Of a DNA stretch of 64,000 bases, positions 5,053 to 62,157 are shown one piece after another (position 1 is the stretch's first letter; each line of letters opens with the position of its first letter). Source of the DNA: a virus. The stretch is taken from the IMG/VR virus record IMGVR_UViG_3300037826_000038, positions 1 to 64,000 of that record; one strand, 5' to 3'. Under the pieces are notes generated by a model. It was given only the letters and a program-made list of their open reading frames with translations. It made no database searches and was not told the origin of the DNA. The position numbers were made by a program, and so were the translations under genes.

Positions 5053-6714
5053 ATGACCACGAACGCCACGCAGCAAGCAATGGAAAAACTTGACCGCAGC
5101 ATCCGGGCGCGATGTCCCGTCATCGGGATAGAGACCCCGGAGACCCGCCGTTTTATGGAGGGGTTGGTGCAGGTGATCGAGAACGACAACCGACGCAATA
5201 TCCGGGCGGATAACAAACGCCCCCGCCGCAAACTATTCTCCTTCTCGGTGACCCAGGGACTAACCCAGGTTGCCACCTACTCCGGGGAACTTGGGTCGGA
5301 GTCCATTGTATATGACGAGCAGAGTGTGATGGAGCCGGGACCGGAACCGGACTTTTCGGTGGTCATGGCCATCGACATCATCCTGGAGCAGGGCAAAGAG
5401 AACGACGAGCCGGTGATCTATATGCTCAAAGATGTGGACGAGTATATGGAGAACCCGCTGGTTGTGCGCGCCCTACGGGACCTCGCGGAGATACTCATTC
5501 GCCGTCGCCAGACCGTGATTCTGGTTAGCCCGGACCTTGGAGGGCTGCCGGAGGTGTTGAACAAGGACATCAAGGTTATCAGTTGGCCCTTACCTACAAA
5601 GGACGAACTCAACCAGCAGGTAGAGTCTTTCGTCCAGAACCTAACCGACGCTGAGGTGAACCTGAACGGCACCCGGGACGAACTGATCGAAGCCCTGCGG
5701 GGTTTGACCGTGAACGAAGCCGATCAGGTGCTAGCCGAAGCGGTTATCAACCACGGGGTGCTAGACGAACGGGCAGTCAATTTTACGATTGACGCCAAGG
5801 CCGAGATTATCCGGTCCAGCGGGGCGTTGGAGTTTTACCCGCCGTCCGTGAAGATGGGGGACGTGGGGGGGCTGGACAACCTGAAAGACTGGCTAGTTAA
5901 GGCCGGGCGGTCCCTCACTCCCCAAGCCCGACAGTTTGGGATCCAACCCGCACGCGGGGCGTTGGTGGTTGGCGTGCCGGGGTGTGGTAAGAGCCTGACC
6001 GCCAAACTGTTAGCCAGTTTGTGGGGTGTTCCCCTACTGAGGTTGGACGTGGGGGCGTTGTTTGGGAGCTTGGTAGGGAGCAGCGAAGCCCAGACCCGTC
6101 AAGCCCTCAAACTCGCCGGAGCCATCGGGCGGTGTGTGCTCTGGATTGACGAGATCGAGAAGGGGTTGAGCAGCCAGGGGGGAGAACTGGACGGAGGGAC
6201 CAGCAAGCGGGTACTGGGGACGATCCTCACGTGGATGGAGGAGCAGAGCGGAGCGAGCGGGGTGTTCGTATTCGCCACTGCCAATGACATTGAGAGCTTG
6301 CGCCCGGAGTTGGTCCGCAGGTTCACCGAGGTCTTTTTCGTGGACATTCCCACACCCCAGGAACGGGAGACCATTTTCAACATACACCTTCGCAAAAGCG
6401 GACGGGACCCCCAGCAGTTTGACGTGAGCAAGCCGGTCGAACTGAGCCAAACCTTCACCGGCGCGGAGATCGAAGAGGCGGTGCAGGGGGCGTTGTGGAT
6501 CGCGTTTAGTGAGGACCGGGACCTGACGAACCAGGACCTGATCGACGCCGTAAACGAGACTGTCCCCCTACTGACCACGATGGGGGAGCAGGTAGAGCGG
6601 ATGCGAAAATGGGCAGCCAGGGCGCGCCCGGCAAGCCGCTACCAGCAGTCCGGTCGTCAGACCCAACGGACCCAAGGGGGGACCGGAAGCCGGGCACAGG
6701 CGTTGGAGATGTAA
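5053..6714 (+). CDS. Ycf46-like AAA+ ATPase
   Basis: 553 residues. The N-terminal 200 residues resemble the degenerate first ATPase domain of Ycf46 proteins ('VIYMLKDVDEYM..PLVVRALRDLA' is typical; no P-loop). The C-terminal AAA+ domain has Walker A GVPGCGKS (307-314), Walker B VLWIDEIE (362-369) and 'RPELVRRF' with candidate arginine fingers. A Gln/Arg/Gly-rich linker leads to the end SRAQALEM. In cyanobacteria and plastids Ycf46 co-occurs with DUF1257 (Ycf35); here the DUF1257 and DUF2997 genes follow directly. The substrate of this ATPase is unknown; remodelling of a protein complex is the likely type of activity. Confidence 0.85.
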   Translation: MTTNATQQAMEKLDRSIRARCPVIGIETPETRRFMEGLVQVIENDNRRNIRADNKRPRRKLFSFSVTQGLTQVATYSGELGSESIVYDEQSVMEPGPEPDFSVVMAIDIILEQGKENDEPVIYMLKDVDEYMENPLVVRALRDLAEILIRRRQTVILVSPDLGGLPEVLNKDIKVISWPLPTKDELNQQVESFVQNLTDAEVNLNGTRDELIEALRGLTVNEADQVLAEAVINHGVLDERAVNFTIDAKAEIIRSSGALEFYPPSVKMGDVGGLDNLKDWLVKAGRSLTPQARQFGIQPARGALVVGVPGCGKSLTAKLLASLWGVPLLRLDVGALFGSLVGSSEAQTRQALKLAGAIGRCVLWIDEIEKGLSSQGGELDGGTSKRVLGTILTWMEEQSGASGVFVFATANDIESLRPELVRRFTEVFFVDIPTPQERETIFNIHLRKSGRDPQQFDVSKPVELSQTFTGAEIEEAVQGALWIAFSEDRDLTNQDLIDAVNETVPLLTTMGEQVERMRKWAARARPASRYQQSGRQTQRTQGGTGSRAQALEM

Positions 6715-6720
6715 GTAAGT

Positions 6721-6753
6721 AGAGGGGGGAGTTAAACGCTCCCCCCTCTTTTG
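6721..6753 (+). terminator. Rho-independent terminator
   Basis: A perfect 11-bp stem (6721-6731 with 6739-6749) encloses the loop TTAAACG, then TTTT. It ends the ATPase transcript and abuts operator copy 4. Confidence 0.85.
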
Positions 6754-6771
6754 GGTTTATGTATGTAAACT
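6754..6771 (+). promoter_or_regulatory. Palindromic operator-like element, copy 4
   Basis: GGTTTA-TGTATG-TAAACT, one base off the full palindrome, between the terminator and the CCAGGAGG ribosome site of the DUF1257 gene. Confidence 0.65.
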
Positions 6772-6797
6772 AAACACACACACCAGGAGGACACACG

Positions 6798-7256
6798 ATG
6801 AGCGAGAAGGCAAAAGCACAGATTGAGGTTTGGGACCCGGAAGCCGTCCGTGAGGTTTTAGAGGAGATGGGCGTGGTATTCACCGAGGATACAACCTGGA
6901 CCGGATACCGCAGCCATCAGAACCAGCCCGCGGACTTCGTGGTTAGCAAGGCCCAGGTGGGCGGGCACTATGGGGACGTGGGGTTCGAGCAGAGGGACGG
7001 CAAGCTCAACATGATCTACGACGACCTTGACGCTGGGGCCGGGCGCACCAGCAAGTTTTTGTCCGAGTTCAAGAAGCGATACAGCCTGACCGCCACCCGC
7101 CGCCTGCTGGAACGGTACGGCTACCGGATCGAGGAGCACGAGGACGGGACGTTTAGCGCCCACAGTACAATGAAGTCAGCCCAACGGATGAGCCAGCACG
7201 GGCACGGACGCAGCGCCGGACGCCAGACCCTACGCCAGCGGTTGGGGCGCGGGTAG
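6798..7256 (+). CDS. DUF1257 (Ycf35-like) protein
   Basis: 152 residues; ATG 6798 follows AGGAGG. Several features match the DUF1257/Ycf35 family: an 'EAVREVLEEMG' helix, 'TGYRSHQNQPADFVV', a 'DVGFEQRDGKLNMIYDD' segment, 'FLSEFKKRYSL' and a final 'RYGYRIEEHEDGTF' hairpin. The family is small, of unknown biochemistry, and encoded with Ycf46 and DUF2997 in cyanobacteria, plastids and other bacteria. The C-terminal 30 residues are an added basic tail rich in Arg, Gln and Gly. Confidence 0.8.
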   Translation: MSEKAKAQIEVWDPEAVREVLEEMGVVFTEDTTWTGYRSHQNQPADFVVSKAQVGGHYGDVGFEQRDGKLNMIYDDLDAGAGRTSKFLSEFKKRYSLTATRRLLERYGYRIEEHEDGTFSAHSTMKSAQRMSQHGHGRSAGRQTLRQRLGRG

Positions 7257-37802: not shown

Positions 37803-38642
37803 TTAGAGAGCGACCGTCTTCCAGAGGTTGTACGCATCCGCGCATCCATCGCGCACGTATTGGCTGTCAGCATTGCCCATCGGCTCAGGGTGTTTTCGTC
37901 CCGGATCCACCAGCCTTGCCGCTTTCCCTGCGGTCTGTGGGTCAATGGTGAAGCGGGGTTGGGACCACTGACCGATCCAGTGAAACAGAAAACCCAGTAC
38001 CCGCCCCGGATCGTCAACCAAATCCTCTAGCTGTACGGTCAGCCAGCGGTTGGCGTCCAGTTTGGAGAACTCTACCCACGCTTGTTCCATCAGGGTATTG
38101 TACCACTCTACAAACGCCTCCGGGTCGCGGGGTCCCCAGTTCTTTGTCAGCACACTGGCGCACACGTCTACCGGGTCACGGATGATATGCACGAACAGGG
38201 AGCCGGGGAATACCTGCTCCAACCAGTCAGCAAAGCACATGGTATGCGGGGTCTTGTGAACGGTTTGAGTCGTGCCGTTGACGGCGTGTGTTAGCCCAAA
38301 CAGAGCGCGGGTGAACCTACGCACGAACAGGCTACGTTGGTTTGTTGAGGTGATGGCCGAGACGTTCTTGCCGATCTCCACGATCATATTAGGTTTGTAA
38401 AGCAATGGGGCTTGGGGGAGCACTCCAAACCGCTTGAGGTTGTGGGTCATTTTGTTGGCAAATAAGTAGGCCACGTTCTCCACGAAGTCGCTGCGGGTGA
38501 TTGAGTTATCAACATAGTCAACGGCCCCGCCGTGATCAATCAGAAAACGGGGCTCGATAAACGCAGAAATCGCGGGGTCCTCGTTCAGCATCCGTGCCAA
38601 CAACGTCGTGCCGCACCGCCCGGTCCCGGCTATAAAGATCAT
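37803..38642 (-). CDS. PAPS-dependent sulfotransferase A
   Basis: 279 residues. The N-terminal 'GTGRCGTTLLARML' (6-19) is the 5'-phosphosulfate-binding loop, and 'HIIRDPVDVCASVL' (152-165) the 3'-phosphate motif (Arg155) of the sulfotransferase_3/branch families. These enzymes move sulfate from PAPS to a hydroxyl or amine of a sugar, protein or small molecule. No signal peptide, so cytosolic. Start overlaps the stop of sulfotransferase B (ATGA). Confidence 0.8.
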   Translation of the reverse strand: MIFIAGTGRCGTTLLARMLNEDPAISAFIEPRFLIDHGGAVDYVDNSITRSDFVENVAYLFANKMTHNLKRFGVLPQAPLLYKPNMIVEIGKNVSAITSTNQRSLFVRRFTRALFGLTHAVNGTTQTVHKTPHTMCFADWLEQVFPGSLFVHIIRDPVDVCASVLTKNWGPRDPEAFVEWYNTLMEQAWVEFSKLDANRWLTVQLEDLVDDPGRVLGFLFHWIGQWSQPRFTIDPQTAGKAARLVDPGRKHPEPMGNADSQYVRDGCADAYNLWKTVAL

Positions 38643-39313
38643 TGATCCTCTCCTGTCTGTATGCGTGCCATCATATCCAATACCTTATCCGGTGCTCCTA
38701 CGAACCCGGCCAACCCAGCCACTTCGTCCTCGGCGTGACTACCCATTAACCGTTCGTAGGACACGTTGAACCGGATGGCACCGTATCGCTCAAAAAACAC
38801 CCGGATATGGAGCCAGTAGGTGTCTACCAAATCCGACCAGTCCTGTGCGGACCGGTCACCCAAATTAGTGCCCTCGTGCCTCCGTAGCAAACTGTCTACG
38901 ATGTCCTGCTTGCGACGTTGGACCACCACGTAGAACGGGGTGCAGTTTTCGAGCAGCAGGACGGGATGCCACGCAAACGAGGTCAGGGCGTTGCGCGGGT
39001 CCTTCCATCCCCACTCCGGGTAGCGTGTGCTGCGCTTCTGGACCAGACTCCGCATCGTTCGGGTGATTAACGGCCCCGCTGCATCAATTACGCGCCAGGG
39101 TTGGGGTGGATTATGCCAGTTGCCCCGCGCTCGCGCGAGGATTAAACGGTTTAGGTCCACAAAATCAACATCCTCGTGATAGCCATACGGCTGCGTCGCG
39201 TCGTGTCCCCCACAGCGGTTGACACACATTGGGACCCCTGCTGTCCGCAGCATCGAGGATACCAGACTGGTCCCGGATCGGTGCATACCTAGAACCACGT
39301 AGACCATACTCAT
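38639..39313 (-). CDS. PAPS-dependent sulfotransferase B
   Basis: 224 residues from ATG 39313, which overlaps the glycosyltransferase stop (ATGA). 'VVLGMHRSGTSLVSSML' is a clear PAPS-binding loop, and 'DYWLHIRVFFERYGAIRFNVSYERLM' resembles the C-terminal part of bacterial sulfotransferases of the 'HRSGTS' type. A canonical 3'-phosphate motif is less clear ('YVVVQRRKQDIVDSLL'). Different enough from A to suggest a different acceptor. Confidence 0.75.
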   Translation of the reverse strand: MSMVYVVLGMHRSGTSLVSSMLRTAGVPMCVNRCGGHDATQPYGYHEDVDFVDLNRLILARARGNWHNPPQPWRVIDAAGPLITRTMRSLVQKRSTRYPEWGWKDPRNALTSFAWHPVLLLENCTPFYVVVQRRKQDIVDSLLRRHEGTNLGDRSAQDWSDLVDTYWLHIRVFFERYGAIRFNVSYERLMGSHAEDEVAGLAGFVGAPDKVLDMMARIQTGEDQ

Positions 39314-39957
39314 AAGGCTTGCCCCTTTCGGTGCCAGTGGGTCCCATACCGAGACCGGGTCCCTTTCGTTTTGTGGTGAATATACTCGTCTATCGGGAAG
39401 TGCTGGGGGCGGTGTCCCCACCGCATTGCGCGCCGTTGGTTGCGGAGCGCCGGTGCGCCGTGCGGTTCAAATGGGGGATAGGCCATGTACGTTGACCGGT
39501 GCCACAACGCCGCGCAGGGGTGACAGTAAGAGATACCCTGCCCTGTCAGAAGCCGGTGTCCTGTGTCATCAACCTGCACGACCCGACCCACCACATACAC
39601 CTCGGGATCGGTCATCATTTGGAGCATCGGCCGCAGGAACTCACCCCGTTTGACCTCGGTGTCACTGTCCAGCGAAAAGAAGAAGGGCGTCCGGGTTTCC
39701 ATCACCCCGGCGTGCAAGCCCGGTCCGTGCCCTTTGTTCTCCATCAGCCACACCCCTTTCGTCTGCGGGTGTAGTTCGGCCCATCGATGGATCATGTTCG
39801 CTGAATTATCGTGGCTACCATTGTCCACGACGATCACCGCGATCTCCGGGTAGTAATACCGCAAGGACTGATAGCAGGTTGTGGTCAAATCCGGGGTCTG
39901 GTAGTTTACGATGATGAAGGTCACGTCACTCAGGCTCGGAACCATTCTCCCATCCAT
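39310..39957 (-). CDS. GT2 glycosyltransferase
   Basis: 215 residues. 'VTFIIVNYQTPDLTTTCYQS', 'VIVVDNGSHDNSANM', 'ENKGHGPGLHAGV' and the DxD in 'FSLDSDTEV' define a GT2/rhamnosyltransferase-like enzyme. The start is uncertain (ATG 39957, ATG 39945, or a GTG near 39927). Translationally coupled to both sulfotransferases, so the sugar it adds is a likely sulfation target. Confidence 0.8.
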   Translation of the reverse strand: MDGRMVPSLSDVTFIIVNYQTPDLTTTCYQSLRYYYPEIAVIVVDNGSHDNSANMIHRWAELHPQTKGVWLMENKGHGPGLHAGVMETRTPFFFSLDSDTEVKRGEFLRPMLQMMTDPEVYVVGRVVQVDDTGHRLLTGQGISYCHPCAALWHRSTYMAYPPFEPHGAPALRNQRRAMRWGHRPQHFPIDEYIHHKTKGTRSRYGTHWHRKGQAL

Positions 39958-44709: not shown

Positions 44710-45372
44710 TCAGTTGGCGAAGGTGTCCGTCAACGTCGCAAACGTCCGGTCAATATGGTTCTGTCGGTTAGAAACTAGATAGATTAGAGGGAGAGAAAGA
44801 AGGGTGACCGCGGCCTTGAACACGATTTGGCCCTGAACGAGGCTCCACAGCCCGGAAACGGGCATCGTTCCGGCAAAGGCCAGGGCCGCAAAGACAAACG
44901 AGTCTACGGGGAGAGAGATGGTGTTGCTGGCAAGAACCCGCATCCACTGTTCGCGGTTGGTGAAATGCTTGGCAAAGACCTGATAGACCCCGGTGTCCAT
45001 GATTTGGCTGATTAACTCGGCCACAATGGACGCCACAGCGATGCGGGGCACGATTCCTAAGACAAGAGAGAATGCCTCTTGGTTGGGCCAAAATGTAGCC
45101 GGGGGCAGGCCAATGGCTAGGAAAAAGTAGGCTACCATAAACAGGTTAGCAACCGCAGCCATGACAATAGCCGCGATAGCCCACTGGGCACCGAGGCGTT
45201 TATGGAGCAGGTCACGCCACGTAAACGTCAGGGCGAAGATCAAGGTCCCCGCTGGCATCGACAGCCCGAAGAGCGTGAACTGCTTGGCTGCCGTGACGTC
45301 CGCCGTTAGTTGAAAGGTTACGTACAAAGAAATGAGAATCACCGCCGTCCAAATCGCCTTATCGCGTTTCAT
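44710..45372 (-). CDS. yhhQ: Queuosine-precursor transporter (YhhQ/VUT family)
   Basis: 220 residues, about six membrane spans. 'TADVTAAKQFTLFGLSMPAGTLIF', 'TWRDLLHKRLG', 'RIAVASIVAELISQIMDTGVYQ' and 'ASNTISLPVDSFVFAALAFAG' are signatures of the YhhQ family, which imports preQ0/preQ1-type 7-deazaguanines. The final stretch 'RTFATLTDTFAN' is unremarkable. Next to the QueF-like gene, which supports a 7-deazaguanine role. Confidence 0.8.
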   Translation of the reverse strand: MKRDKAIWTAVILISLYVTFQLTADVTAAKQFTLFGLSMPAGTLIFALTFTWRDLLHKRLGAQWAIAAIVMAAVANLFMVAYFFLAIGLPPATFWPNQEAFSLVLGIVPRIAVASIVAELISQIMDTGVYQVFAKHFTNREQWMRVLASNTISLPVDSFVFAALAFAGTMPVSGLWSLVQGQIVFKAAVTLLSLPLIYLVSNRQNHIDRTFATLTDTFAN

Positions 45373-46713: not shown

Positions 46714-46808
46714 AGTACCTGAATACTATATGTCCCCAGGGCAGTTTTAGGCAATTTGTGAAATTGCCCTATTTGCCCCTTGACTTTATAATGTTTTAGG
46801 GTTATAAT
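46714..46808 (+). promoter_or_regulatory. Strong promoter with nested operators
   Basis: TTGACT (46780-46785), 17 bases, TATAAT (46803-46808). Upstream lies the perfect inverted repeat GGCAATTTGTGAAATTGCC (46750-46768), and further up TAGTA-N6-TACTA (from 46714). Nearly identical to 54073-54168. Probably an early promoter controlled by a repressor bound upstream. Confidence 0.85.
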
Positions 46809-46848
46809 GTAAGTGAGTTAAGTAAACACTACACACCGGGAGGACAAA

Positions 46849-47948: not shown

Positions 47949-47987
47949 TGGTTTACACCAACCCATTTGATTAGAAAGGAGATTGCT

Positions 47988-48797
47988 ATGGGAGTCGTAG
48001 GATTTGACCTTGAGATTTACAAGGAGCTGCCGGGTGGGGACTGGCGGCCCCACCGCCCCCTCGGGATCACGTGCGCCGCCATCGTAGGGGAGAGTGATTC
48101 TGGCGGGGAGATCGTGTCGGTATTCCCCGATGACCCGGAGTGGACGTTCAACCAGATGCCTACCCATCAGGCTGAGGAACTGGCGGTGGAACTGGTGATG
48201 AACCACGACCAGGGCAACCGGCTGGTGACGTGGAACGGGCTGGGCTTTGACTTCCCGGTGTTGCTCGACGCCGTGGAGAGCCAGGGGCTCCGGCGACGAC
48301 TGGCTGAGATAGCCTTGGACCATATCGACATGGCATTTGTGATGCTGTGCGATAAGGGGTTTATGATATCCCTCAATAAGGCGGCTCAGGGGCTGGGGCT
48401 GTCCGGGAAGACCGAGGGTATGTCGGGCTCGCTGGCTCCGATCCTTTGGAACAAGCCGGAGCGGGGACTGACGGTCAACGAGCAATATGCCATCGACGCC
48501 CTGCACGTGGAGCCGGGCACCCAGGAGGCGCGAGACTTATGCCTTGAATACGTGACCCAGGATTCACGCGCCACCTACGAGGTCTATCAAGCGTTGGTCG
48601 AGGATGGGGCGCTGTTCTGGGAGACACGGCGGGGTACGCAGAGCAAGTATCCGTGGGTGCCCTTTATCACGAACGGTCACCTCCCTACCTGCCGGGAAGC
48701 CTACCAGACGGAGGAGCCGGATACCAGTTGGATGACGGACCCGTGGCCCCGGGAAAGATTTATCGGGTGGGCATTGGAGATGGTCAATGACAACTGA
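47988..48797 (+). CDS. DEDD-family 3'-5' exonuclease
   Basis: 269 residues from ATG 47988 (AAAGGAG upstream). 'VVGFDLEIYKEL' gives the first Asp-Glu pair, 'LVTWNGLGFDFPVL' the second motif, and 'YVTQDSRATYEVYQAL' the third Asp, as in PolB-like/RNase T-type exonucleases. A stand-alone proofreading or recombination nuclease for phage replication. Its stop overlaps the next start by 11 bases. Confidence 0.75.
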   Translation: MGVVGFDLEIYKELPGGDWRPHRPLGITCAAIVGESDSGGEIVSVFPDDPEWTFNQMPTHQAEELAVELVMNHDQGNRLVTWNGLGFDFPVLLDAVESQGLRRRLAEIALDHIDMAFVMLCDKGFMISLNKAAQGLGLSGKTEGMSGSLAPILWNKPERGLTVNEQYAIDALHVEPGTQEARDLCLEYVTQDSRATYEVYQALVEDGALFWETRRGTQSKYPWVPFITNGHLPTCREAYQTEEPDTSWMTDPWPRERFIGWALEMVNDN

Positions 48798-49434: not shown

Positions 49435-50081
49435 ATGTCAAACTACTGAGCATCACCCCAAACGCCGATGAACTGATTGAGCACGCCGGGCGGGTATGTC
49501 ACCAGTCCAACGAACTTGATGGTACGGATACAGAAACGTTTATCCGGTATCTGGTTAAAGTGGGACATGAGAGTGTAATTGAGCACGCCACAGCTACGTT
49601 CGAGATCAGCGGGATCAGCCGGGCGTGCAGTCACCAGCTTGTCCGGCACCGCATCGCGTCGTACTCCCAGGAGAGCCAGCGGTACGTCGATATGTCTGAC
49701 CCCGAATACGTGATGCCCCCTACCATTGAGGACGACGCTGAGGCGCTGGAGACCTTTACGGAACTGTGCTATCACGTCACACGCCTCTATCGCGAACTGC
49801 GTGAGTTGGGTATTCCCAAGGAGGACGCCCGGTTCGTGCTGCCCAACGCCACCGCAACCCGTATCGTGGTCACGATGAACTTCCGGGAACTGCTCCACTT
49901 CTTCAGGCTGCGTACTACACCGCACGCCCAGTGGGAAATCCGTTGGGTTGCACTGTGGATGCTGGACCTACTTGGGACACAGAGTGTCATTTTCTACGAT
50001 TTTCTGGCACGGTTTATCGACTATCACCCTGACCTGTATCAACAATACCTCGGCCGGAGGACCCACTATGAAGCGCAGTAA
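49431..50081 (+). CDS. thyX: Flavin-dependent thymidylate synthase
   Basis: 216 residues from ATG 49431 (ATGA overlap). The ThyX signature 'RHRIASYSQESQRY' (RHRxxSxxxxSxRY) and 'ESVIEHATATFEISGISRACSHQLVRH' are clear. Converts dUMP to dTMP with FAD/NADPH and methylene-THF, supplying thymidylate for phage replication. Length is normal for the family. Confidence 0.9.
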   Translation: MNVKLLSITPNADELIEHAGRVCHQSNELDGTDTETFIRYLVKVGHESVIEHATATFEISGISRACSHQLVRHRIASYSQESQRYVDMSDPEYVMPPTIEDDAEALETFTELCYHVTRLYRELRELGIPKEDARFVLPNATATRIVVTMNFRELLHFFRLRTTPHAQWEIRWVALWMLDLLGTQSVIFYDFLARFIDYHPDLYQQYLGRRTHYEAQ

Positions 50082-50880
50082 GATCGAGTGGACGGACTAT
50101 TCAGGTGGCTACGCTAACATCGTCTGGCGGGGTTCTGAGGACTCCGACTGCAAATGCTCACCGGGGTGCGCGAACTGCTATGTTGACCGCATCACTGCCC
50201 GCGCCGGGGACCGCTGGCCGCACCTAACCCAGTTTCACCCCGACAAACTGGACAAACTGGCACGCTGTCAGCCCCGTCCCGGTAAGACCCCGTATCGTCG
50301 AGGTCCGGGCAGCAAGCCCATGGTCTTTGTTGTAGACATCGGGGACCTTTTTCACCGGCGCGTCCCCCAGTGGTTTATCCACAAGTCACTGGATACGTTT
50401 TATGTCCGTAACGACATCACATGGCAGTTACTCACCAAACGCCCGGACCGTATGTATGACGAGATCGAAGCGTGGCTGACGGTCAATGCTCTAAATGAGT
50501 TGCCGGATTGGATATGGGCCGGTGTGACCGTGGAAAACCAAGACTGTGCGGCAGACCGCATCAATCCATTTTCGGCACTGAGAGCAGCGGTGCGGTGGGT
50601 GTCTTATGAGCCAGCGCTGGGTGACATCTACTGGGCCGGTTGGGAGTTTGTGGACTGGCTGGTGGCTGGGGGAGAGTCCGGTGCTGATGCCCGGCCCGCG
50701 TCTGTGGTATGGTTCCGCAACGCCCGTGACTGGGCGTTGGAAAACGGGATCGACTTCTTCTTCAAACAGTGGGGGGAATGGGCACCCACAGGGGACAATT
50801 CGATGATGCTCAAGCGTGTTGGGCGGTATGATGCAGGGTGTGAGTTGGACGGGAGAGAATGGAGGGAGTTTCCGAGATGA
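50068..50880 (+). CDS. Phage Gp37/Gp68-like (DUF5131) protein
   Basis: 270 residues from ATG 50068. 'KIEWTDYSGGYANIVWR' then 'CKCSPGCANCYVDRI' (CxCxxxCxxC cluster), 'MVFVVDIGDLFHRRVPQWFI', 'WQLLTKRPDRM' and 'GGESGADARP' match the Gp37/Gp68 family, a radical-SAM-like fold of unproven reaction, common in phages. Confidence 0.8.
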   Translation: MKRSKIEWTDYSGGYANIVWRGSEDSDCKCSPGCANCYVDRITARAGDRWPHLTQFHPDKLDKLARCQPRPGKTPYRRGPGSKPMVFVVDIGDLFHRRVPQWFIHKSLDTFYVRNDITWQLLTKRPDRMYDEIEAWLTVNALNELPDWIWAGVTVENQDCAADRINPFSALRAAVRWVSYEPALGDIYWAGWEFVDWLVAGGESGADARPASVVWFRNARDWALENGIDFFFKQWGEWAPTGDNSMMLKRVGRYDAGCELDGREWREFPR

Positions 50881-54072: not shown

Positions 54073-54168
54073 TAGTACCAAGGTACTAGCACCAACCGGG
54101 GCAATTCTAGGCAATTTGTGAAATTGCCCTATTTGCCCCTTGACATTATAATGTTTTAGGGTTATAAT
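54073..54168 (+). promoter_or_regulatory. Consensus promoter with three nested inverted repeats
   Basis: TTGACA (54140-54145), 17 bases, TATAAT (54163-54168), perfect consensus. Upstream: TAGTACCAAGGTACTA (54073-54088) and GGCAATTTGTGAAATTGCC (54110-54128), the latter inside an outer GGGGCAA...TTGCCCC pair. Almost the same block as at 46714-46808, so the two are co-regulated. Confidence 0.9.
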
Positions 54169-54210
54169 GTAAGTGAAGTTAAGTAAACACTACACACCGG
54201 GAGGCGAGAG

Positions 54211-55198: not shown

Positions 55199-55216
55199 GG
55201 TTTATGCATGTAAAGC
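55199..55216 (+). promoter_or_regulatory. Palindromic operator-like element, copy 7 (degenerate)
   Basis: GGTTTA-TGCATG-TAAAGC after TTTTT, so the right arm is damaged. Precedes AGGAGG and the accessory cassette. Confidence 0.55.
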
Positions 55217-55244: not shown

Positions 55245-55847
55245 ATGACAGTGAACATTCGATGCGACGAGGACCGTTGTTTTGCCAGTAGCCCCTATCA
55301 CCCCGACTTGCACAAGGAAGAAGCAATGGACAAGCAAACCTACACGATCAATGACGAAAAGCCGCCTTTGCGAGAACTGATTGGGCGCAGGTTTGATGAC
55401 GTGCGCGATCTCCGCGAGCAGGACCTCGATCACCTGCAGGACGCGATTACCATTCGGCGTAATGAGATCATGGCCTCTCGTCTGGAAAAGCGCGGCATCC
55501 AGACGAGAATCTGCAAAGACTTCGACGACGGTCCCGCATACCATTTCTCCTACATATTGGTCTGCGACCCTGAAGGTGAGCTCCCGAACGAATGGGCTGA
55601 CCTGGGTGAGGCACGCCGATTGCTGGATACGGCCCGTAACCTGGGACCTGCCGAAGCGTTCCGACGCTGGCGTGAGAAGGTCGCCCCACTAGCGCACGAG
55701 ACGTACACCCGAGCCGACGCTCTTCGTGACGTGCGCGCCGAACGCGCGGAAGCTGATCAGATGTACAGGGACGGGCAGATCGATGCAGAAACCCATCGGA
55801 TGATGCACCGCGATGCCCGTGATTACCTGGACATGGCAGAAGAATGA
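55245..55847 (+). CDS. Unknown 200-aa protein leading the accessory cassette
   Basis: ATG 55245 after CCAGGAGG. Helical and charged ('REQDLDHLQDAITIRRNEIMASRLEKRG'), with a C-terminal heptad region. Its stop overlaps the SNF2 start by four bases, so it is co-translated with the helicase and may be its partner. No family recognised. Confidence 0.6.
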   Translation: MTVNIRCDEDRCFASSPYHPDLHKEEAMDKQTYTINDEKPPLRELIGRRFDDVRDLREQDLDHLQDAITIRRNEIMASRLEKRGIQTRICKDFDDGPAYHFSYILVCDPEGELPNEWADLGEARRLLDTARNLGPAEAFRRWREKVAPLAHETYTRADALRDVRAERAEADQMYRDGQIDAETHRMMHRDARDYLDMAEE

Positions 55848-57928
55848 CCCTCCTCGTCAAACCGGAAGAGCAGGTCTCGACCCAGACGGCGTCGCTGCGC
55901 ATCGATGGCGACGTCGTCTCGGTCGTGCTCCCGGATCGCGACCCTCGGTTCGTGAACGTCGTCCGGTCCTTATCATTTCGTTGGGACCGATCGCGCTACG
56001 CCTGGGTCCGGAAGGTCGGCAAGTTCACCGGATCCGTCGAGGACCGTGCCGCCGAGGCAGGGCGCGCTATCCTCGCTGCCGGCTTCGGCGTCGATTTCCC
56101 CGACGAGGCGGTCCAGGACAAGGCCGTCTCCGGCGATTACGAGCCAGAGGTCCGCCGCTGGGTCCTCGCTGCGACCGGTGGTGAGTACAAGGGGTGGTTT
56201 CTCCTCCGGTGGGGCCGCCGCCGTGACGAGGTCAACTACTACACGCGGGCCAAGAAAATCACCGGTGCATGTTACGACCGTAACGCGCATGCGGTCGTCG
56301 TGCCGTCCGATCAATATCGCGAGGTCGAGGACTTTGCGCAAATGCACGACTTCCGTTTCTCCCCTGGGGCTCACGCCCTCGTCACTGAGGCCAAGCAGCG
56401 CGAGGCCAAGGCCCTGGTCGTCGCCGTCGAGTTCGAGGATGCGGACGACGGCGGGCGCCGCTGGCGACGCCCTACGCTTGACGAGCCCTCCGGCAAGCCG
56501 CTCCCAAAGTTTATCGACTACCGGGGTGTGGACTTCGGCGTGACGACCGCTCTCTTCCGCCATCAGACACAGGCCGTGGAGAAGCTCGCGCCTCTGACCG
56601 TCGGCGGGGCATTTATGGAGATGGGGACCGGAAAGACCCGCGTTGCCATCGAATTGGCGCATCGCCGCCGGCGCCGTCTCAGCGGCGTCGTGTGGTTCTG
56701 CCCCGTCTCGCTCAAGGCCACGATCCGCCATGAGATCCACAAACATACGGCGGACTCGGCGGTCTATGTCTTCGACGACAACACGACGATCCGCTCGCTG
56801 CCGCGTGCAGATTGGTACATTGTCGGCATTGAATCGATGAGCAGCTCGGACCGGACGGTCCTGGCCGCCAACGCCATCATCGATGAACATTCGATGGTGG
56901 TCGTCGATGAGTCGTCGAAGATCAAAAACCACGACGCCAACCGGACGCGTAGGATTACCAGCGTCGGGGGGAAGGCCCGCTACCGGATGATTCTCACCGG
57001 CACGCCGGTCTCCCAGGGCGTCGAGGACCTCTACGCGCAATTGCGCTTCCTGTCGCCGGAGATCCTCGGGTACAACTCCTACTATAGCTTCGCAGCCAAT
57101 CACCTGGAATACCATCCGGATTATCCCGGTATGGTCGTCCGGGCGCACAACACCGCCTGGCTGGCCGCCAAGCTGCAGCCGTACGTCTACCAGGTGACCA
57201 AGGACGAGGCCGGGCTGGATCTCCCCCGCAAGGTCCACGAAGCGCGGTATTTCGACATGACGTACGAGCAGCGGGAACTCTACGAGCGGGCGAAGTACGA
57301 GCTGCTGATGATGCTGCCGGACGACGAGATTGACAGCTACGCCATCTTTCGGCTGTTCGGCGCGCTTCAGCAGATCACGAGCGGCTTTTGGAATCGCGAC
57401 GGGGAAGTGATCGCCGTTGACCACGACCGCCTGGGAACCGCGCTGGCCGCCGTCGATAGCATTCCCCCGGAGGCCAAGGTGATCATCTGGTGCAAATACC
57501 TCCGCAGCCTTCACGCCCTGGCCGGTGCCCTGCGTGCCGAGCATGGCGAGGAAAGCGTCGCGCTCTACTACGGCGATCTCAACGAGCAGGAGCGCGAGGC
57601 AGAGCTCAACCGGTGGCGATCTGAGGCCCGCTTCCTGGTGGCCACCCAATCCACCGGCGGCTACGGCCTGACGCTTAACGAGGCGCACCACGTGCTCTTC
57701 TACGAGAACGGATTCAGCTACGCCGAACGCCTCCAAGCCGAGGACCGGTGCCACCGGATCGGCCAGGAGCACCGCGTCACGTACGTCGACGTGACCTGCG
57801 AGCGGTCCATTGACACCCGGATCCAGCAGGCGCTGGACAGCAAGGAGAACTTCGCCGCAGCTTTCCGCAGACAAATCGACCGAGTCAAAGACGATCCGGC
57901 TAAGGTTAAGGAACTCATCAACGCATAG
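55844..57928 (+). CDS. SNF2-family helicase
   Basis: 694 residues. The N-terminal 210 residues contain two similar small domains of unknown fold. The ATPase has Walker A 'MEMGTGKTRVAIELA' (about 257-271), motif II 'VVVDESSKIKN' (DESS rather than DEAH), motif III 'LTGTPVSQG', then lobe 2 with 'WCKYLRSLHAL', 'FLVATQSTGGYGLTL' and 'QAEDRCHRIGQ'. A complete SNF2-type DNA translocase, of the short bacterial/phage kind. Possibly displaces proteins from DNA. Confidence 0.85.
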   Translation: MTLLVKPEEQVSTQTASLRIDGDVVSVVLPDRDPRFVNVVRSLSFRWDRSRYAWVRKVGKFTGSVEDRAAEAGRAILAAGFGVDFPDEAVQDKAVSGDYEPEVRRWVLAATGGEYKGWFLLRWGRRRDEVNYYTRAKKITGACYDRNAHAVVVPSDQYREVEDFAQMHDFRFSPGAHALVTEAKQREAKALVVAVEFEDADDGGRRWRRPTLDEPSGKPLPKFIDYRGVDFGVTTALFRHQTQAVEKLAPLTVGGAFMEMGTGKTRVAIELAHRRRRRLSGVVWFCPVSLKATIRHEIHKHTADSAVYVFDDNTTIRSLPRADWYIVGIESMSSSDRTVLAANAIIDEHSMVVVDESSKIKNHDANRTRRITSVGGKARYRMILTGTPVSQGVEDLYAQLRFLSPEILGYNSYYSFAANHLEYHPDYPGMVVRAHNTAWLAAKLQPYVYQVTKDEAGLDLPRKVHEARYFDMTYEQRELYERAKYELLMMLPDDEIDSYAIFRLFGALQQITSGFWNRDGEVIAVDHDRLGTALAAVDSIPPEAKVIIWCKYLRSLHALAGALRAEHGEESVALYYGDLNEQEREAELNRWRSEARFLVATQSTGGYGLTLNEAHHVLFYENGFSYAERLQAEDRCHRIGQEHRVTYVDVTCERSIDTRIQQALDSKENFAAAFRRQIDRVKDDPAKVKELINA

Positions 57929-57942
57929 AGCAGAAAGGAAAG

Positions 57943-58470
57943 ATGATGGATAGATACGAAGTCGAGTTGGCGAGTGAGTTCTGCGATGTTTTGTTTGCGA
58001 CTTTATCTGCGGTCGGTTTGTTTCCTGACGACCCGGCAGCTCCGGATCACGAGTTTGAGGAGCCGGGCTTGTTGTTGGTCAAGCGTCTACGTCAGTACGA
58101 TGATCCCGAGCCGGGTTATTTGGAATGGATCTCTGAGATTCTGCGTCGTGAAGACGCCGAACACCGAGAAGTCACATTCCCAGAGCTGATGGTCCTACGG
58201 TCATGGGTTATCGAGATGTCCTACGAGTTCAATGATGAGATGTACCGACATCTGGAGAAATCTCTGTTGGCAAGGGCAAGGCAATGGCAGTTTTCGCTTA
58301 AGAAAAACCTTCTCAGCTTGGCAGACGCTGAATCAGAATGGGGGATGTCGAACCTTCGCCAGAATGCACGGGGGCGACTTCCGATGTGGAAAGTTGGTCG
58401 AAATTGGGTGACCACCAGAACTGCGATGTGGACGACGTTTGGAGAACCGGAGGGAGAATACGACCTATGA
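57943..58470 (+). CDS. Protein with C-terminal HTH
   Basis: 175 residues, ATG 57943 or 57946 after AAAGGAAAG. The C-terminal 'LADAESEWGMSNLRQNARGRLPMWKVGRNWVTTRTAMW' is an excisionase/MerR-like HTH in which 'KVGRNWVTTRTAM' is the wing. The N-terminal 110 residues are acidic and helical. A likely DNA-binding regulator or specificity factor for the cassette. Confidence 0.65.
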   Translation: MMDRYEVELASEFCDVLFATLSAVGLFPDDPAAPDHEFEEPGLLLVKRLRQYDDPEPGYLEWISEILRREDAEHREVTFPELMVLRSWVIEMSYEFNDEMYRHLEKSLLARARQWQFSLKKNLLSLADAESEWGMSNLRQNARGRLPMWKVGRNWVTTRTAMWTTFGEPEGEYDL

Positions 58471-59159
58471 GTAAGACGCTGTTTGACACCCTGGTCGACG
58501 ATATCGTCGACCAGGGGCTTGAGTTGGCCAAGCAGATAGAGACGCTTCCAGAGGAGCAACGTATCAGGGCGCTTAACCGTGTCAGGACCGCGCTTCATAG
58601 GGTTAGTCCTTTTAAGGACGAGCCGATAGATCTGGTCCTGTGGGAAAAAGGTGAGCGCGTCAAACCAAACGATTACAACCCCAATGTCGTCCATCGCCCG
58701 GAGATGAGGCTCCTCGAAGAGTCCATCGACGTGGATCATATGACACAACCGGTTGTCACGTCCTCGCCCGATGCGGATCCTCACGTAGACCCCAAACCAA
58801 TAGTCGATGGCGAGCATCGATACATTATATGCACCGATGTAGGCCGGATACACGCACGGCTTCGAGGATATGTGCCGATCACAATCGTACCGGCAGACAC
58901 AGAGCAAGCGCAGATGGCGAGCACGGTTAGACACAACCGTGCTCGCGGGGTACATAAATTAGACGGCATGACAGACATTGTTCTGTCAATGCTGCAAGCT
59001 GGATGGGAAGACGACGAGATTGCCAACGCGATGGGTATGGATGCCGACGAAATCCTTCGCCTCAAACAGGTCGCGGGTGCAGCGGAGGCGTTCAGACGTC
59101 CGATGTACAAAAGAGCCTGGGTTTTCGATGATGGACAAACAGAAATTGAAACACCTTGA
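58467..59159 (+). CDS. IbrB-like ParB-domain protein
   Basis: 230 residues from ATG 58467, overlapping the HTH gene. The middle has 'MRLLEESIDVDHMTQPVV' and 'IVDGEHRYIICTDVGRIHARLRGYVPITIV', the ParB/sulfiredoxin pattern with E-H-R. 'DIVLSMLQAGWEDDEIANAMGMDADEILRLKQ' supplies the HTH-like part. The nearby IbrA-like gene makes this the IbrB of an IbrAB pair. Confidence 0.75.
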   Translation: MSKTLFDTLVDDIVDQGLELAKQIETLPEEQRIRALNRVRTALHRVSPFKDEPIDLVLWEKGERVKPNDYNPNVVHRPEMRLLEESIDVDHMTQPVVTSSPDADPHVDPKPIVDGEHRYIICTDVGRIHARLRGYVPITIVPADTEQAQMASTVRHNRARGVHKLDGMTDIVLSMLQAGWEDDEIANAMGMDADEILRLKQVAGAAEAFRRPMYKRAWVFDDGQTEIETP

Positions 59160-59793
59160 ACAGTGGCGCGTCCGCGGTATTTTCGCACAGGACCGCTGCG
59201 AGCTATTTGAGGCGGCGGCGGAACAGATTTTGCAAGCTACCGGTCTCACCAGGGTCGTCTATTTGCATGACGAAGGTGGTGACATTCGTTTTGCTGGTGC
59301 GGACGAAACTTTTGTCCTACAACATATGACCAAGCGTTACACAGACCTACTAGCCGCTATGGATACCATCAACGACGAGACCCTGTTGATTGTCGATGAC
59401 GTCGAAAACATACAGAGGTATCCAATCTCAATGACACGCCACATGATCAATCATATTGCCAGTCAAACGCGGTATAAGATTATTGGAGGAGCGTCTTTGT
59501 TAGAACGTCACTTTTATGATCTGTACGCACCGTTCCACGTACTGGACCGGCGCATTCTCTGGGCTTCGCATTACTGGGCCCTCAAGGCTCAACATCGTGA
59601 AGTTTCTGTTTTTGACGGTCGTACCGTGGTTGAAAACAAAGACATGGCATACACAGCCAGAAAAATCAAGCCGTTTGTCTATTTTGATTTGCAACCGGAC
59701 TCGGACAACCCGTTACAGGTTGAGTTCTATGGCGATTTGCGACGCGCACCTATAATGCCCCGCACGCAGGATATGGAGGACTTGAAGTTGTGA
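59128..59793 (+). CDS. Half-size SNF2-derived protein without P-loop
   Basis: 221 residues, ATG 59128/59131, overlapping the IbrB-like gene by 32 bases. Residues around 85 ('LLIVDDVENIQRY') mimic motif II. From 'RYKIIGGASLLERHFYDLYA' on, it runs parallel to the window's own SNF2 protein ('RYRMILTGTPVSQGVEDLYA'), and both share the later 'AxxAxKxxPxVY' segment. Walker A and the whole second lobe are missing. Probably a non-hydrolysing derivative acting as a subunit. Confidence 0.6.
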   Translation: MMDKQKLKHLEQWRVRGIFAQDRCELFEAAAEQILQATGLTRVVYLHDEGGDIRFAGADETFVLQHMTKRYTDLLAAMDTINDETLLIVDDVENIQRYPISMTRHMINHIASQTRYKIIGGASLLERHFYDLYAPFHVLDRRILWASHYWALKAQHREVSVFDGRTVVENKDMAYTARKIKPFVYFDLQPDSDNPLQVEFYGDLRRAPIMPRTQDMEDLKL

Positions 59794-60869
59794 GTAAAAT
59801 CTACCTACTGCAGAATGTGTACGAAGCCGCTATCGAGCGTCTTAGATTCGTCAGAGAAAACTTCGATCGCGTTGTTGTTGCCTTCAGCGGCGGCAAAGAT
59901 TCAACGCTAACACTGCACTTGGCCATGGAGGTATTCAGTGATTTCACGGTCTACTTCTGGGACAAGGAAAGCAACTTGATCTCCACGGCGGACTTTATTC
60001 GTGATATATTCGATACTCTCTCTGGGCGGGTCGAACCTTATTGGTTCGCGCTTCCATTTAGGATGCGCAACGCACTAAGCGTTTATGAACCGTATTGGTA
60101 CTGTTGGGACCCCTCATGTGTTGACCGCTGGATCTATCAGCCACCAGACCGTTCGTATGTCTATATGAGAGATCGAAATATTCTGTCTTCATATGGATAC
60201 AACCCCGATCGGCATAATTTATATCGGCTCTTCGCAGAACATATTAGCGAGCGCGGAAAATACAGAACCGCTATTCTCGTCGGCTTGCGCACCGACGAGT
60301 CACTGAATCGCTTCCGGGCAGTCACCAAAAACCCACAAATGGGAAAAACATGGATGACAAAAACGGACGCAGATGGCAACAACTGTTTCAATGTGTATCC
60401 GGTTTATGATTGGTCCTTCGGTGATGTCTGGACCTATATCGCTGAGAACAATGTCCCCTACGCGCCTGTTTATGACCAAATGCACAAAGCTGGTATTTAC
60501 AAACGCAATATGCGGATTTCGCAATCTTTCTGTGACGTTAGCAAAAAGGGACTGCCGGCAATTCGAGAAATCGAGCCCGAGTCTTTTGCGAGGTTCGCGC
60601 AACGCGTCGCCGGTGTGAACTCGCTTACCCATGTTGACCTCGAAGAAGTTATCAAGGCGGCAGAAGGTATAAGTTACGATTTCCTTTTGCAGCTTTACCC
60701 TGCTGATGTACGAGAAGAAGTTGAGACTAGGCTTGAACGCAGCCCCACGCTCGATGGAGAAGACCGTAATGTTATTCGTGCGTTGCTCAACAATGACATC
60801 CGCCTGAAACGGGTAAATCGTTCTCGGCGCAATGGGGCAGCGGTTAAGGAGAAATATAGTAACCTATAG
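59790..60869 (+). CDS. IbrA-like PAPS-reductase-family enzyme (DUF3440)
   Basis: 359 residues, GTG start overlapping the upstream TGA. 'VVVAFSGGKDSTLTLHLA' (PP-loop, SGGKDS 33-38), 'WFALPFRMRNALSVYEPYWYCWDP', 'ILVGLRTDESLNRFRAV', 'VYPVYDWSFGDVW' and 'ISQSFCDVSKKGLPAIREIEPESFARFAQRVAG' match IbrA/DUF3440. The domain binds an adenylyl nucleotide and resembles PAPS reductase and DndC. The reaction in IbrAB systems is not settled. Confidence 0.8.
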   Translation: MSKIYLLQNVYEAAIERLRFVRENFDRVVVAFSGGKDSTLTLHLAMEVFSDFTVYFWDKESNLISTADFIRDIFDTLSGRVEPYWFALPFRMRNALSVYEPYWYCWDPSCVDRWIYQPPDRSYVYMRDRNILSSYGYNPDRHNLYRLFAEHISERGKYRTAILVGLRTDESLNRFRAVTKNPQMGKTWMTKTDADGNNCFNVYPVYDWSFGDVWTYIAENNVPYAPVYDQMHKAGIYKRNMRISQSFCDVSKKGLPAIREIEPESFARFAQRVAGVNSLTHVDLEEVIKAAEGISYDFLLQLYPADVREEVETRLERSPTLDGEDRNVIRALLNNDIRLKRVNRSRRNGAAVKEKYSNL

Positions 60870-60875
60870 GAGGTT

Positions 60876-61340
60876 ATGATGCGACCTATTAAGGAGAAGA
60901 AACTTGTTGTCGTCGTGGGACCACCCGGTAGCGGGAAAACCACAATTCTTGACGATTATCCGGGATACGTTCGCTTCGACAACGACAGGATCATCGAGGC
61001 ACTATGGGGGGAGTTGAAGTATCATCCCCGTATCAAGAGAATGGCCAAGGGGATGGTGCGTGAGGGCATGCGCAGAGCGATGGAGTACGGGATCGCGATG
61101 GCGACCCCTATCAGCGGGCGAACAAAACAAGATCGTGCGAAAATCGTCAAACCAATCCGGTCGGCAGGCTATGAGGTTACCATGGTGCGAGCGACGACAC
61201 CGGCGGACGAGTGTCTTGCGCGATGCAAAGCGGATGAAAATAGACCGAAAACCACAAATTGGGAACCGATCATTGACCGGTGGTTCCGTGTCTTCGAACC
61301 TGTTGAGGCTGATGAGTGCGATACCTACATTGAGGTCTAG
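60876..61340 (+). CDS. P-loop nucleotide/polynucleotide kinase-like protein
   Basis: 154 residues. 'LVVVVGPPGSGKTTILDDYPGYVRFDNDRI' is a Walker A followed by a short 'FDNDRI' strand, as in AAA_33/PNK-type kinases. 'REGMRRAMEYGIAMATPISGRTKQDRAKIV' and 'VRATTPADECLARCKADENRP' fit that family. Could phosphorylate a nucleic-acid end, a nucleotide or APS; the sequence cannot decide. TAGGAGG precedes it. Last cassette gene. Confidence 0.7.
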   Translation: MMRPIKEKKLVVVVGPPGSGKTTILDDYPGYVRFDNDRIIEALWGELKYHPRIKRMAKGMVREGMRRAMEYGIAMATPISGRTKQDRAKIVKPIRSAGYEVTMVRATTPADECLARCKADENRPKTTNWEPIIDRWFRVFEPVEADECDTYIEV

Positions 61341-61398: not shown

Positions 61399-61440
61399 AT
61401 GCCGAAAGCAAACGAGCTCGCCCAGCACCTGCCCGTCCTT
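61399..61440 (+). other. Leader reading frame after a strong ribosome site
   Basis: AAAAAGGAGG precedes ATG 61399 ('MPKANELAQHLPVL...'). No stop occurs: the frame passes through the terminator and operator and joins the next gene in frame at 61519. Either the stump of a lost gene or a translated leader affecting the terminator. Confidence 0.4.
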
Positions 61441-61451
61441 ACACCCACTAA

Positions 61452-61483
61452 CCGGAACCTGTTAAACGCAGGTTCCGGTTTTT
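61452..61483 (+). terminator. Rho-independent terminator
   Basis: Perfect 10-bp stem CCGGAACCTG/CAGGTTCCGG with loop TTAAACG, then TTTTT; directly followed by operator copy 8. Confidence 0.9.
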
Positions 61484-61501
61484 GGTTTATGTACGTAAAC
61501 C
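61484..61501 (+). promoter_or_regulatory. Palindromic operator-like element, copy 8
   Basis: GGTTTA-TGTACG-TAAACC, six bases before GGGAGG of the next gene. Confidence 0.7.
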
Positions 61502-61518
61502 ATACACCGGGAGGTAAC

Positions 61519-62157
61519 ATGCAGACGTTTCTACCGTACGAGGATTTCGAGCAGAGCGCACGAGTGCTTGACAACAGACGCCTAGGCAAACAGATCACCG
61601 AGGTCGATCAGATTCTTGACCGTCTGGAAAGCCCCAGTATGCCCCACGCTTGGCGCAACCACCCCACGGTCAAGATGTGGGTTGGACACGCCGGCACACT
61701 GGTTGACTACGGGATCGAGATGTATGCTGAATGGCAGGACCGGCTATCCAAGGGGGAACGGGGTGGGGTGATGGAACACAAGTCTGGCGAACATATCCTT
61801 GACCAACACCTTACCTACTGGGACGGTTGCCAGTACAGAAACCCGCCGTGGCTGGGGGACCCCGCGTTCCACAAAGCCCACCGAGGGGCGCTTCTGTGGA
61901 AGGGATTGATGGACAAGACCTACGGACGGCTCAAGGAGAAGCTCCCCCAGGGAACCACCGCCGCGCAATGGCTTAGGGACCACGGCTACAACAAAAAGCA
62001 CCGCTGGACCGAGGTCGATTACAACCGGGCGTGCCGGTACATTGGAACCACGGTCACGCTTGGGATGACGTACTATGGGCTTGTGTTTGCCGACTGGGAC
62101 AGCATGCTGGTTGCGGACGACAGTGGCAGCCTCCCGTATGTCTGGCCGGTGTCCTAA
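61519..62157 (+). CDS. Pyrimidine-dimer-glycosylase-like/MSMEG_6728 family protein
   Basis: 212 residues from ATG 61519 after GGGAGG. 'MQTFLPYEDFEQSARVLDNRRLGKQITEVDQIL' and 'AWRNHPTVKMWVGHAGTLVDYGI' are the family signature. Annotated as pyrimidine dimer DNA glycosylase-like, with distant T4 DenV resemblance. Likely repairs phage DNA or acts on modified bases. The C-terminal half is less conserved. Confidence 0.75.
   Translation: MQTFLPYEDFEQSARVLDNRRLGKQITEVDQILDRLESPSMPHAWRNHPTVKMWVGHAGTLVDYGIEMYAEWQDRLSKGERGGVMEHKSGEHILDQHLTYWDGCQYRNPPWLGDPAFHKAHRGALLWKGLMDKTYGRLKEKLPQGTTAAQWLRDHGYNKKHRWTEVDYNRACRYIGTTVTLGMTYYGLVFADWDSMLVADDSGSLPYVWPVS

Follow-up and report, generated by a model that had tools for sequence, protein, structure and literature searches.

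Gene content and boundaries of the cassette

We analysed a stretch of 64,000 nucleotides (nt), hereafter the window, which comprises positions 1 to 64,000 of the 68,765-base virus record IMGVR_UViG_3300037826_000038 and carries a cassette of seven genes around an IbrA/IbrB-like pair and an SNF2 translocase. All seven genes are located on the plus strand at 55245-61340, with the first ATG at 55245, and overlap or almost abut each other (spacings between consecutive genes of -4, +14, -4, -32, -4, and +6 nt). Operator-like repeats flank the cassette on both sides.

55201..55214, plus strand: operator-like repeat TTTATGCATGTAAA, seventh plus-strand copy, upstream of the cassette (motif count; repeat family D1)
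55245..55847, plus strand: protein of 200 amino acids (aa) of no recognised family (open reading frame; no library match)
55844..57928, plus strand: SNF2 translocase, 694 aa (PF00176/PF00271, phrog_62, intact motifs)
57943..58470, plus strand: Cas11d-like domain (residues ~5-135) with C-terminal helix-turn-helix (HTH), here Cas11d-HTH (PADLOC PDLC01499, phmmer, L177 homologue)
58467..59159, plus strand: IbrB-like protein, ParB-fold domain with HTH-like C-terminal part (phrog_2159, PDB ParB/Noc matches)
59128..59793, plus strand: catalytically dead first lobe of SNF2 (pseudo-motor; 221 aa) that overlaps the start of IbrA (lost motifs, model, fold)
59790..60869, plus strand: IbrA-like PP-loop enzyme of the phosphoadenosine phosphosulfate (PAPS) reductase superfamily (PF01507, phrog_2302, SGGKDS)
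60876..61340, plus strand: P-loop kinase, AAA_33/zeta-toxin-like (PF13671)
61486..61499, plus strand: operator-like repeat TTTATGTACGTAAA, eighth plus-strand copy, downstream of the cassette (motif count)

Plus-strand copies of the repeat were counted in the form TTTA(T/A)n..GTAAA with at most two mismatches. For the motif TTTATGTACGTAAA, 23 matches with up to three mismatches were observed versus 3.1 expected, a number reached by none of 100 shuffles; the repeat family in the window is real and far above chance. Open reading frames, gaps, and repeat count agree with an original prediction, made from the window sequence, of seven tightly packed genes between operator copies seven and eight. 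The gene identities proposed there stand as called, except for the "HTH protein", in which an HTH is joined to a Cas11d-like domain. Apart from the first gene, for which no match was found in Pfam, PHROG, NCBIfam, or PADLOC, all cassette proteins can be assigned by homology to known families or derived from them.

Recurrence and transfer of SNF2, IbrA, and IbrB

To assess recurrence, per-gene profiles were run against 173 IbrA loci, made up of 80 viral contigs, 80 genome contigs, 11 phage records, L006, and the window. At 39 of these loci, IbrA has a compact SNF2 gene nearby, a share of 23% that is no census, since the loci were drawn by likeness to the IbrA proteins studied here. SNF2-positive loci comprise 16 genome contigs, 17 viral contigs, Lactobacillus, Fusobacterium, Streptococcus, and Flavobacterium phages, L006, and the window. 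All 41 SNF2-type hits are located on the IbrA strand, 38 of them within 1 kb and 36 of these upstream, and IbrB lies at most 1 kb from IbrA at 170 of the 173 loci. On the IbrA tree the SNF2 label changes 11 times, compared to 36.4 times with shuffled labels; it is clustered, yet occurs on several distant branches. Near IbrAB loci lacking SNF2, other helicases are few (ResIII 5, DEAD 5, of 110 neighbours).

The gene set that the original prediction had proposed to look for elsewhere thus recurs in other phages and bacteria, with respect to SNF2, IbrA, and IbrB. The kinase is present in one relative only and the first gene has no counterpart at any other sampled locus. A fixed seven-gene system was therefore rejected: dead lobe and kinase are restricted to phage G001 (locus L006), Cas11d-HTH to phage G222 (locus L177).

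Whole-record protein comparisons (threshold E < 1e-4) were carried out between the window phage and these two phages. With G001 (73.6 kb; SNF2, IbrB, dead SNF2 lobe, IbrA, and kinase) it has only cassette proteins in common, namely SNF2 (54% identity), IbrB (58%), the dead lobe (46%), IbrA (70%), and the kinase (67%). In case of G222 (48.9 kb; SNF2, Cas11d-HTH, IbrA, and IbrB), the common proteins are SNF2 (52%), Cas11d-HTH (61%), IbrB (33%), and IbrA (30%), plus a 41-residue stretch of another protein. As these otherwise unrelated phages share essentially only the cassette with the window phage, protein comparison identifies it as a laterally mobile module. SNF2 and Cas11d-HTH of G222 are closer to the window proteins than IbrAB, and its IbrA falls on another tree branch, which would fit either a repeated joining of the two cassette halves or different rates of evolution. 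G222 in turn has SNF2, a 300-aa protein, IbrA, IbrB, and a DPPW/DPPY-type methyltransferase in common with phage G014.

A phage-borne defence against competing phages would also fit the transfer of the whole cassette between unrelated phages, the resemblance of SNF2, ParB, and PP-loop enzyme to defence gene sets, and the matches of the SNF2 protein to the ZorD, DpdE, and DrmD profiles (PADLOC), ZorD and DpdE being helicases of defence systems. However, Pfam, NCBIfam, and PADLOC revealed neither a nuclease nor a toxin domain in the cassette, save that the kinase scored as borderline zeta-toxin-like, and the SNF2-IbrA-IbrB triad also occurs in phages of Streptococcus thermophilus and Lactobacillus, some of which are strictly lytic. 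We consider a defence role rather unlikely.

The SNF2 motor, its dead first lobe, and the Cas11d-like protein

The SNF2 protein matches PF00176 (E = 6e-22), PF00271 (E = 3e-13), and phrog_62 (E = 5e-100) and contains two RecA lobes with motifs I, II, III, and VI, of which Walker A GTGKT, DES, TGTP, and QAEDRCHRIGQ are intact. Its active core (~470 aa) with intact motor motifs is that of the compact phage SNF2 proteins (phrog_62), but phage copies of this type are mostly not situated beside IbrAB, and the cassette form adds an N-terminal extension of ~230 aa that is conserved in G222. This extension occurs in both phages with Cas11d-HTH and is missing in G001, which has no Cas11d-HTH; a sample of three phages gives no more than a hint of a joint action of the two.

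The dead lobe has no match in domain libraries. It aligns to the first lobe of SNF2 with Walker A lost, DE changed to DD, and TGTP to GGAS, and the second lobe is absent. A profile of the dead lobe and its L006 homologue matches an active SNF2 (E = 9e-17). Its structure model, with a predicted local distance difference test (pLDDT) score of 87, matches SNF2 motors (1z63, Foldseek E = 1.6e-4; structural comparison, Z 13-14), although the underlying alignment includes active SNF2 proteins and may pull the model toward the SNF2 fold. Motif loss, model, and fold match bear out the half-size, inactive SNF2 relative that had been predicted. Differences from the L006 homologue amount to 0.39, 0.32, and 0.63 at the three codon positions; since they fall mostly at third positions, the lobe is maintained as a protein, under protein-level constraint. 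A decaying pseudogene was rejected, as both phages keep the frame open at an identity of 48%, with changes mostly at third positions. The dead lobe overlaps the IbrA start and thereby takes the position of the active compact SNF2 at other loci.

A tblastn search with the dead lobe gave no significant match in phages and one weak helicase match in plasmids, and Cas11d-HTH was not present in the phage and plasmid records searched. Single-sequence scans of viral contigs revealed no relatives of either protein; by alignment-based scans of these contigs, the dead lobe was otherwise found in G001 only and Cas11d-HTH in G222 only. Inactive SNF2 modules that work without catalysis are described for DndH and PglZ (PMC10853773, PMC12839542). 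There the dead SNF2 part is a fused domain (in DndH the second lobe), whereas the cassette encodes a free-standing first lobe.

A comparable position is occupied in G222 and G014 by the 300-aa protein (L177:6757-7659 and L164:7127-7999), which precedes and overlaps the IbrA start. It is collinear with an SNF2 lobe over motifs Ia-III (profile comparison E = 6.5e-4, probability 27%; single comparisons 6e-3, versus 0.26-0.64 for unrelated controls). These values are suggestive of a possible second, independently decayed SNF2 lobe.

Residues 5-135 of Cas11d-HTH match the PADLOC Cas11d profile PDLC01499 (E = 1.1e-20). None of 14 control genomes matched in the same search, and of 198 genomes of one bacterial phylum a single one did. 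This match (reference L176) is situated in a full type I-D locus, identified by reading through its genes, with helicase, HD protein, Cas10d, Cas11d, Csc2-like, and Csc1-like genes. The bona fide Cas11d of L176 finds the phage proteins by phmmer (E = 5e-13 to 8e-13, background of ~13,500 open reading frames), and the reverse profile search yields 53.9 bits, compared to at most 2.6 bits for 200 shuffles. With 34% identity over 108 columns, the N-terminal ~110-130 residues are homologous to Cas11d; the C-terminal part is an excisionase-like HTH. The 61% identical G222 homologue likewise matches Cas11d.

The phage protein shares its N-terminal part with the small subunit of type I-D Cascade but stands alone, has an HTH in place of the C-terminal part, and lacks recognised Cas10d, Csc1, Csc2, and CRISPR RNA genes beside it. 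Among the cassette proteins and the next gene, no Cas10d, Csc1, Csc2, or Cas3' was found with Pfam, PHROG, and PADLOC. Since phage homologues of Cas proteins are a known source of anti-CRISPRs, with AcrIB3, AcrIB4, and AcrVIA2 as established cases (PMC13131331), we regard Cas11d-HTH as an anti-CRISPR candidate against type I-D. Like these, it is a single Cas-derived protein on a mobile element, but inhibition is only a candidate function in its case. No Cas11d-derived anti-CRISPR was found in the papers searched. The Cas11d-like gene lends indirect support to an anti-defence role of the cassette.

IbrA chemistry, companion enzymes, and proposed function

IbrA contains a PAPS-reductase core (PF01507, E = 9e-19; phrog_2302, E = 2e-69). 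Its motifs SGGKDS, D-x-E, GxRxxES, and YPxYDWxxxDxW are common to 12 phage homologues, with small deviations in one or two, and the catalytic positions are near-invariant in 173 homologues. Nucleotide-binding residues are thus present in an intact PP-loop; their lack, combined with unmodified phage DNA, would have spoken against the original prediction, as would a gene set confined to the window, and judged by sequence neither applies. IbrB matches phrog_2159 (E = 9e-57) and ParB/Noc structures in the PDB, and its motifs NxYNPN, DGxHR, and RHNRARGxH are near-invariant in 171 homologues. In one mycobacterial and one Pseudoalteromonas phage, IbrB is fused to or located beside a cupin-like "ectoine synthase" domain (L005:6302-7201; L010:6305-7235).

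No cysteine is invariant among the 173 IbrA proteins, and the commonest cysteine column (88%) is occupied by leucine in the window IbrA. The best solved relatives include flavin adenine dinucleotide (FAD) synthase, CysD, and PAPS reductase, and a CysD profile matches as well. FAD synthase and CysD perform nucleotide transfer without a persulfide, so that AMP-forming chemistry appears likely for IbrA and DndC-type sulfur transfer does not. Common to the cassette and Dnd (DndC, DndB) are a PP-loop enzyme and a ParB-superfamily partner, IbrA and DndC belong to one superfamily, and weak DndC matches were obtained; the original prediction had drawn this sulfur link. However, the TIGR03183 score of 38.3 bits lies far below the cut-off of 290.4, DndA, DndD, and DndE are missing from the cassette, and DndC carries a distinct cysteine dyad (PMC10853773). 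Lacking an invariant cysteine and with a score so far below the cut-off, IbrA gives no support to sulfur chemistry of this kind; it was rejected as a DndC phosphorothioation enzyme, and DndC-like phosphorothioation of DNA by the cassette is extremely improbable.

Sulfur metabolism is a further alternative, in which IbrA and the kinase would make activated sulfate for two sulfotransferase-like proteins of the phage. The latter (37806-38642 and 38642-39421, both minus strand) were assigned to Sulfotransfer_3, placed by motif, and are unusual phage cargo; a glycosyltransferase-like gene (39313-39957, minus strand) adjoins them. Along with the CysD match they would fit this idea, but it does not account for the association with the dead lobe, SNF2, and IbrB, and no sulfotransferase was found among the recurrent neighbours of the sampled loci, which makes it very improbable.

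The kinase matches PF13671 (E = 3e-11); as regards a kinase acting on 5-hydroxymethyldeoxyuridine in DNA, the PDB match was weak and to another P-loop protein. A DPPW/DPPY-type methyltransferase ends the cassette in G222 and G014 (43% identical to each other); in G222 its gene (DPPW motif; L177:9347-9988) overlaps IbrB. Due to these companion enzymes at the cassette end, DNA modification is the strongest rival explanation: IbrA would use ATP to activate the backbone or a base, IbrB would pick the sites, SNF2 would give access, and a companion enzyme would add or finish the mark, which would shield phage DNA from nucleases. The intact PP-loop, the retention of the kinase with IbrA in G001, and the SNF2 scores to ZorD and DpdE, the latter from a DNA-modification system, are in agreement with this. 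In contrast, IbrA has no conserved cysteine, no desulfurase is encoded in the cassette, and kinase and methyltransferase are each limited to one sub-group, with neither at most IbrAB loci. DNA modification is a doubtful but serious contender.

The E. coli pair (ECOR-9 type; YbdN/YbdM in K-12) shows the same adjacency of a DUF3440-type PP-loop protein and a ParB-like protein and is widespread in prophages. Sampled enterobacterial pairs lack an SNF2 partner, whereas the cassette adds motor, dead lobe, Cas11d-HTH, and kinase; unlike the E. coli type, its IbrA has a shortened and diverged C-terminal part, with a DUF3440 score of 22.7 bits against a gathering cut-off of 25. E. coli IbrAB is reported to activate eib genes. 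Together with a remodeller, the pair might accordingly turn on phage or host genes as a transcription co-activator, and the ParB plus HTH architecture of IbrB, the LysR regulator adjoining ybdNM in E. coli, and the annotation of IbrAB as co-activators in PMC4490671 and phage records are consistent with that. Such a role would not account for the conserved catalytic residues of the PP-loop, the companion enzymes, or the Cas11d homologue, and we regard co-activation as unlikely.

Instead, we tentatively favour, at somewhat short of an even chance, the reading of the cassette as a mobile module, probably one expression unit, for an ATP-driven DNA-acting complex directed against the host, either in counter-defence or in host reprogramming. 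Three points speak for counter-host action: the cassette passes from phage to phage, it encodes a Cas11d homologue, and no nuclease was recognised in it. The ParB and HTH parts of IbrB would bind DNA; the SNF2 motor would travel on double-stranded DNA and shift or displace bound proteins; and IbrA would spend ATP in AMP-forming chemistry. The dead lobe, sited where other loci have an active motor, may tie IbrA to the motor or to DNA. Cas11d-HTH, travelling with the long SNF2 form, may compete for type I-D Cascade or R-loops or guide the motor to them. With gene content, overlaps, dead motifs, intact PP-loop, missing invariant cysteine, Cas11d homology, recurrence, and transfer as observations, we infer complex formation, all partner contacts, substrate, and purpose.

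Several observations weigh against this complex. SNF2 is absent from 134 of the 173 IbrAB loci, and 1,502 of 50,697 phage records contain SNF2 of this type, mostly outside IbrAB loci, so that SNF2 and IbrAB each work in other contexts too. The structure model of Cas11d-HTH (mean pLDDT 52) is too poor to test for a helical-bundle fold and gave no significant fold match, and the protein is known from two phages, for neither of which a type I-D host is known. Finally, in the papers searched IbrAB figure solely as co-activators of prophage gene expression (PMC4490671). It is tempting to speculate further that the Cas11d-derived HTH protein acts as an adaptor that would bring SNF2 to Cascade-bound or R-loop DNA and strip the immune complex, with IbrAB and the dead lobe positioning or licensing the motor; such an ATP-driven anti-CRISPR built from a Cas subunit is quite improbable.

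The gene that follows the cassette (61399-62157) encodes a domain of the MSMEG_6728 family (PF03013) resembling pyrimidine-dimer glycosylases. A repeat of 81 bp, whose copies at 46736-46816 and 54096-54176 are 95% identical, resembles a strong sigma-70 promoter (TTGACT ... TATAAT), and its second copy is situated ~1 kb ahead of the cassette. Elsewhere in the window, a probable queuosine-precursor/vitamin transporter is encoded at 44713-45372 (minus strand), where the Vut_1 match was placed by hydrophobicity; in the Fusobacterium phage phiFN37, which has an IbrAB-SNF2 block as well, a few genes separate this block from those for a queuosine transporter and a tRNA-guanine transglycosylase. A DUF5131 protein (49948-50877, E = 8e-57) and an exonuclease-like gene (47967-48797) are located in the same early region, and an AAA ATPase followed by a DUF1257 (Ycf35-like) protein at 5053-7253.

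In the open-access papers searched, no description was found of the gene combination, the free-standing dead motor lobe, or the Cas11d-HTH fusion, in line with the expectation of a complex not described before. Phages and prophages often carry IbrAB pairs, and the cassette makes two orphan genes a testable multi-protein system, given that a specific SNF2 motor accompanies IbrAB and that the cassette is transferred as a whole among unrelated phages. A phage Cas11d with a DNA-binding domain is a concrete anti-CRISPR candidate against type I-D. Due to culturable carriers of the triad, e.g., Streptococcus phage CHPC1148 and Lactobacillus phage CR28, the function of the system is open to genetics.

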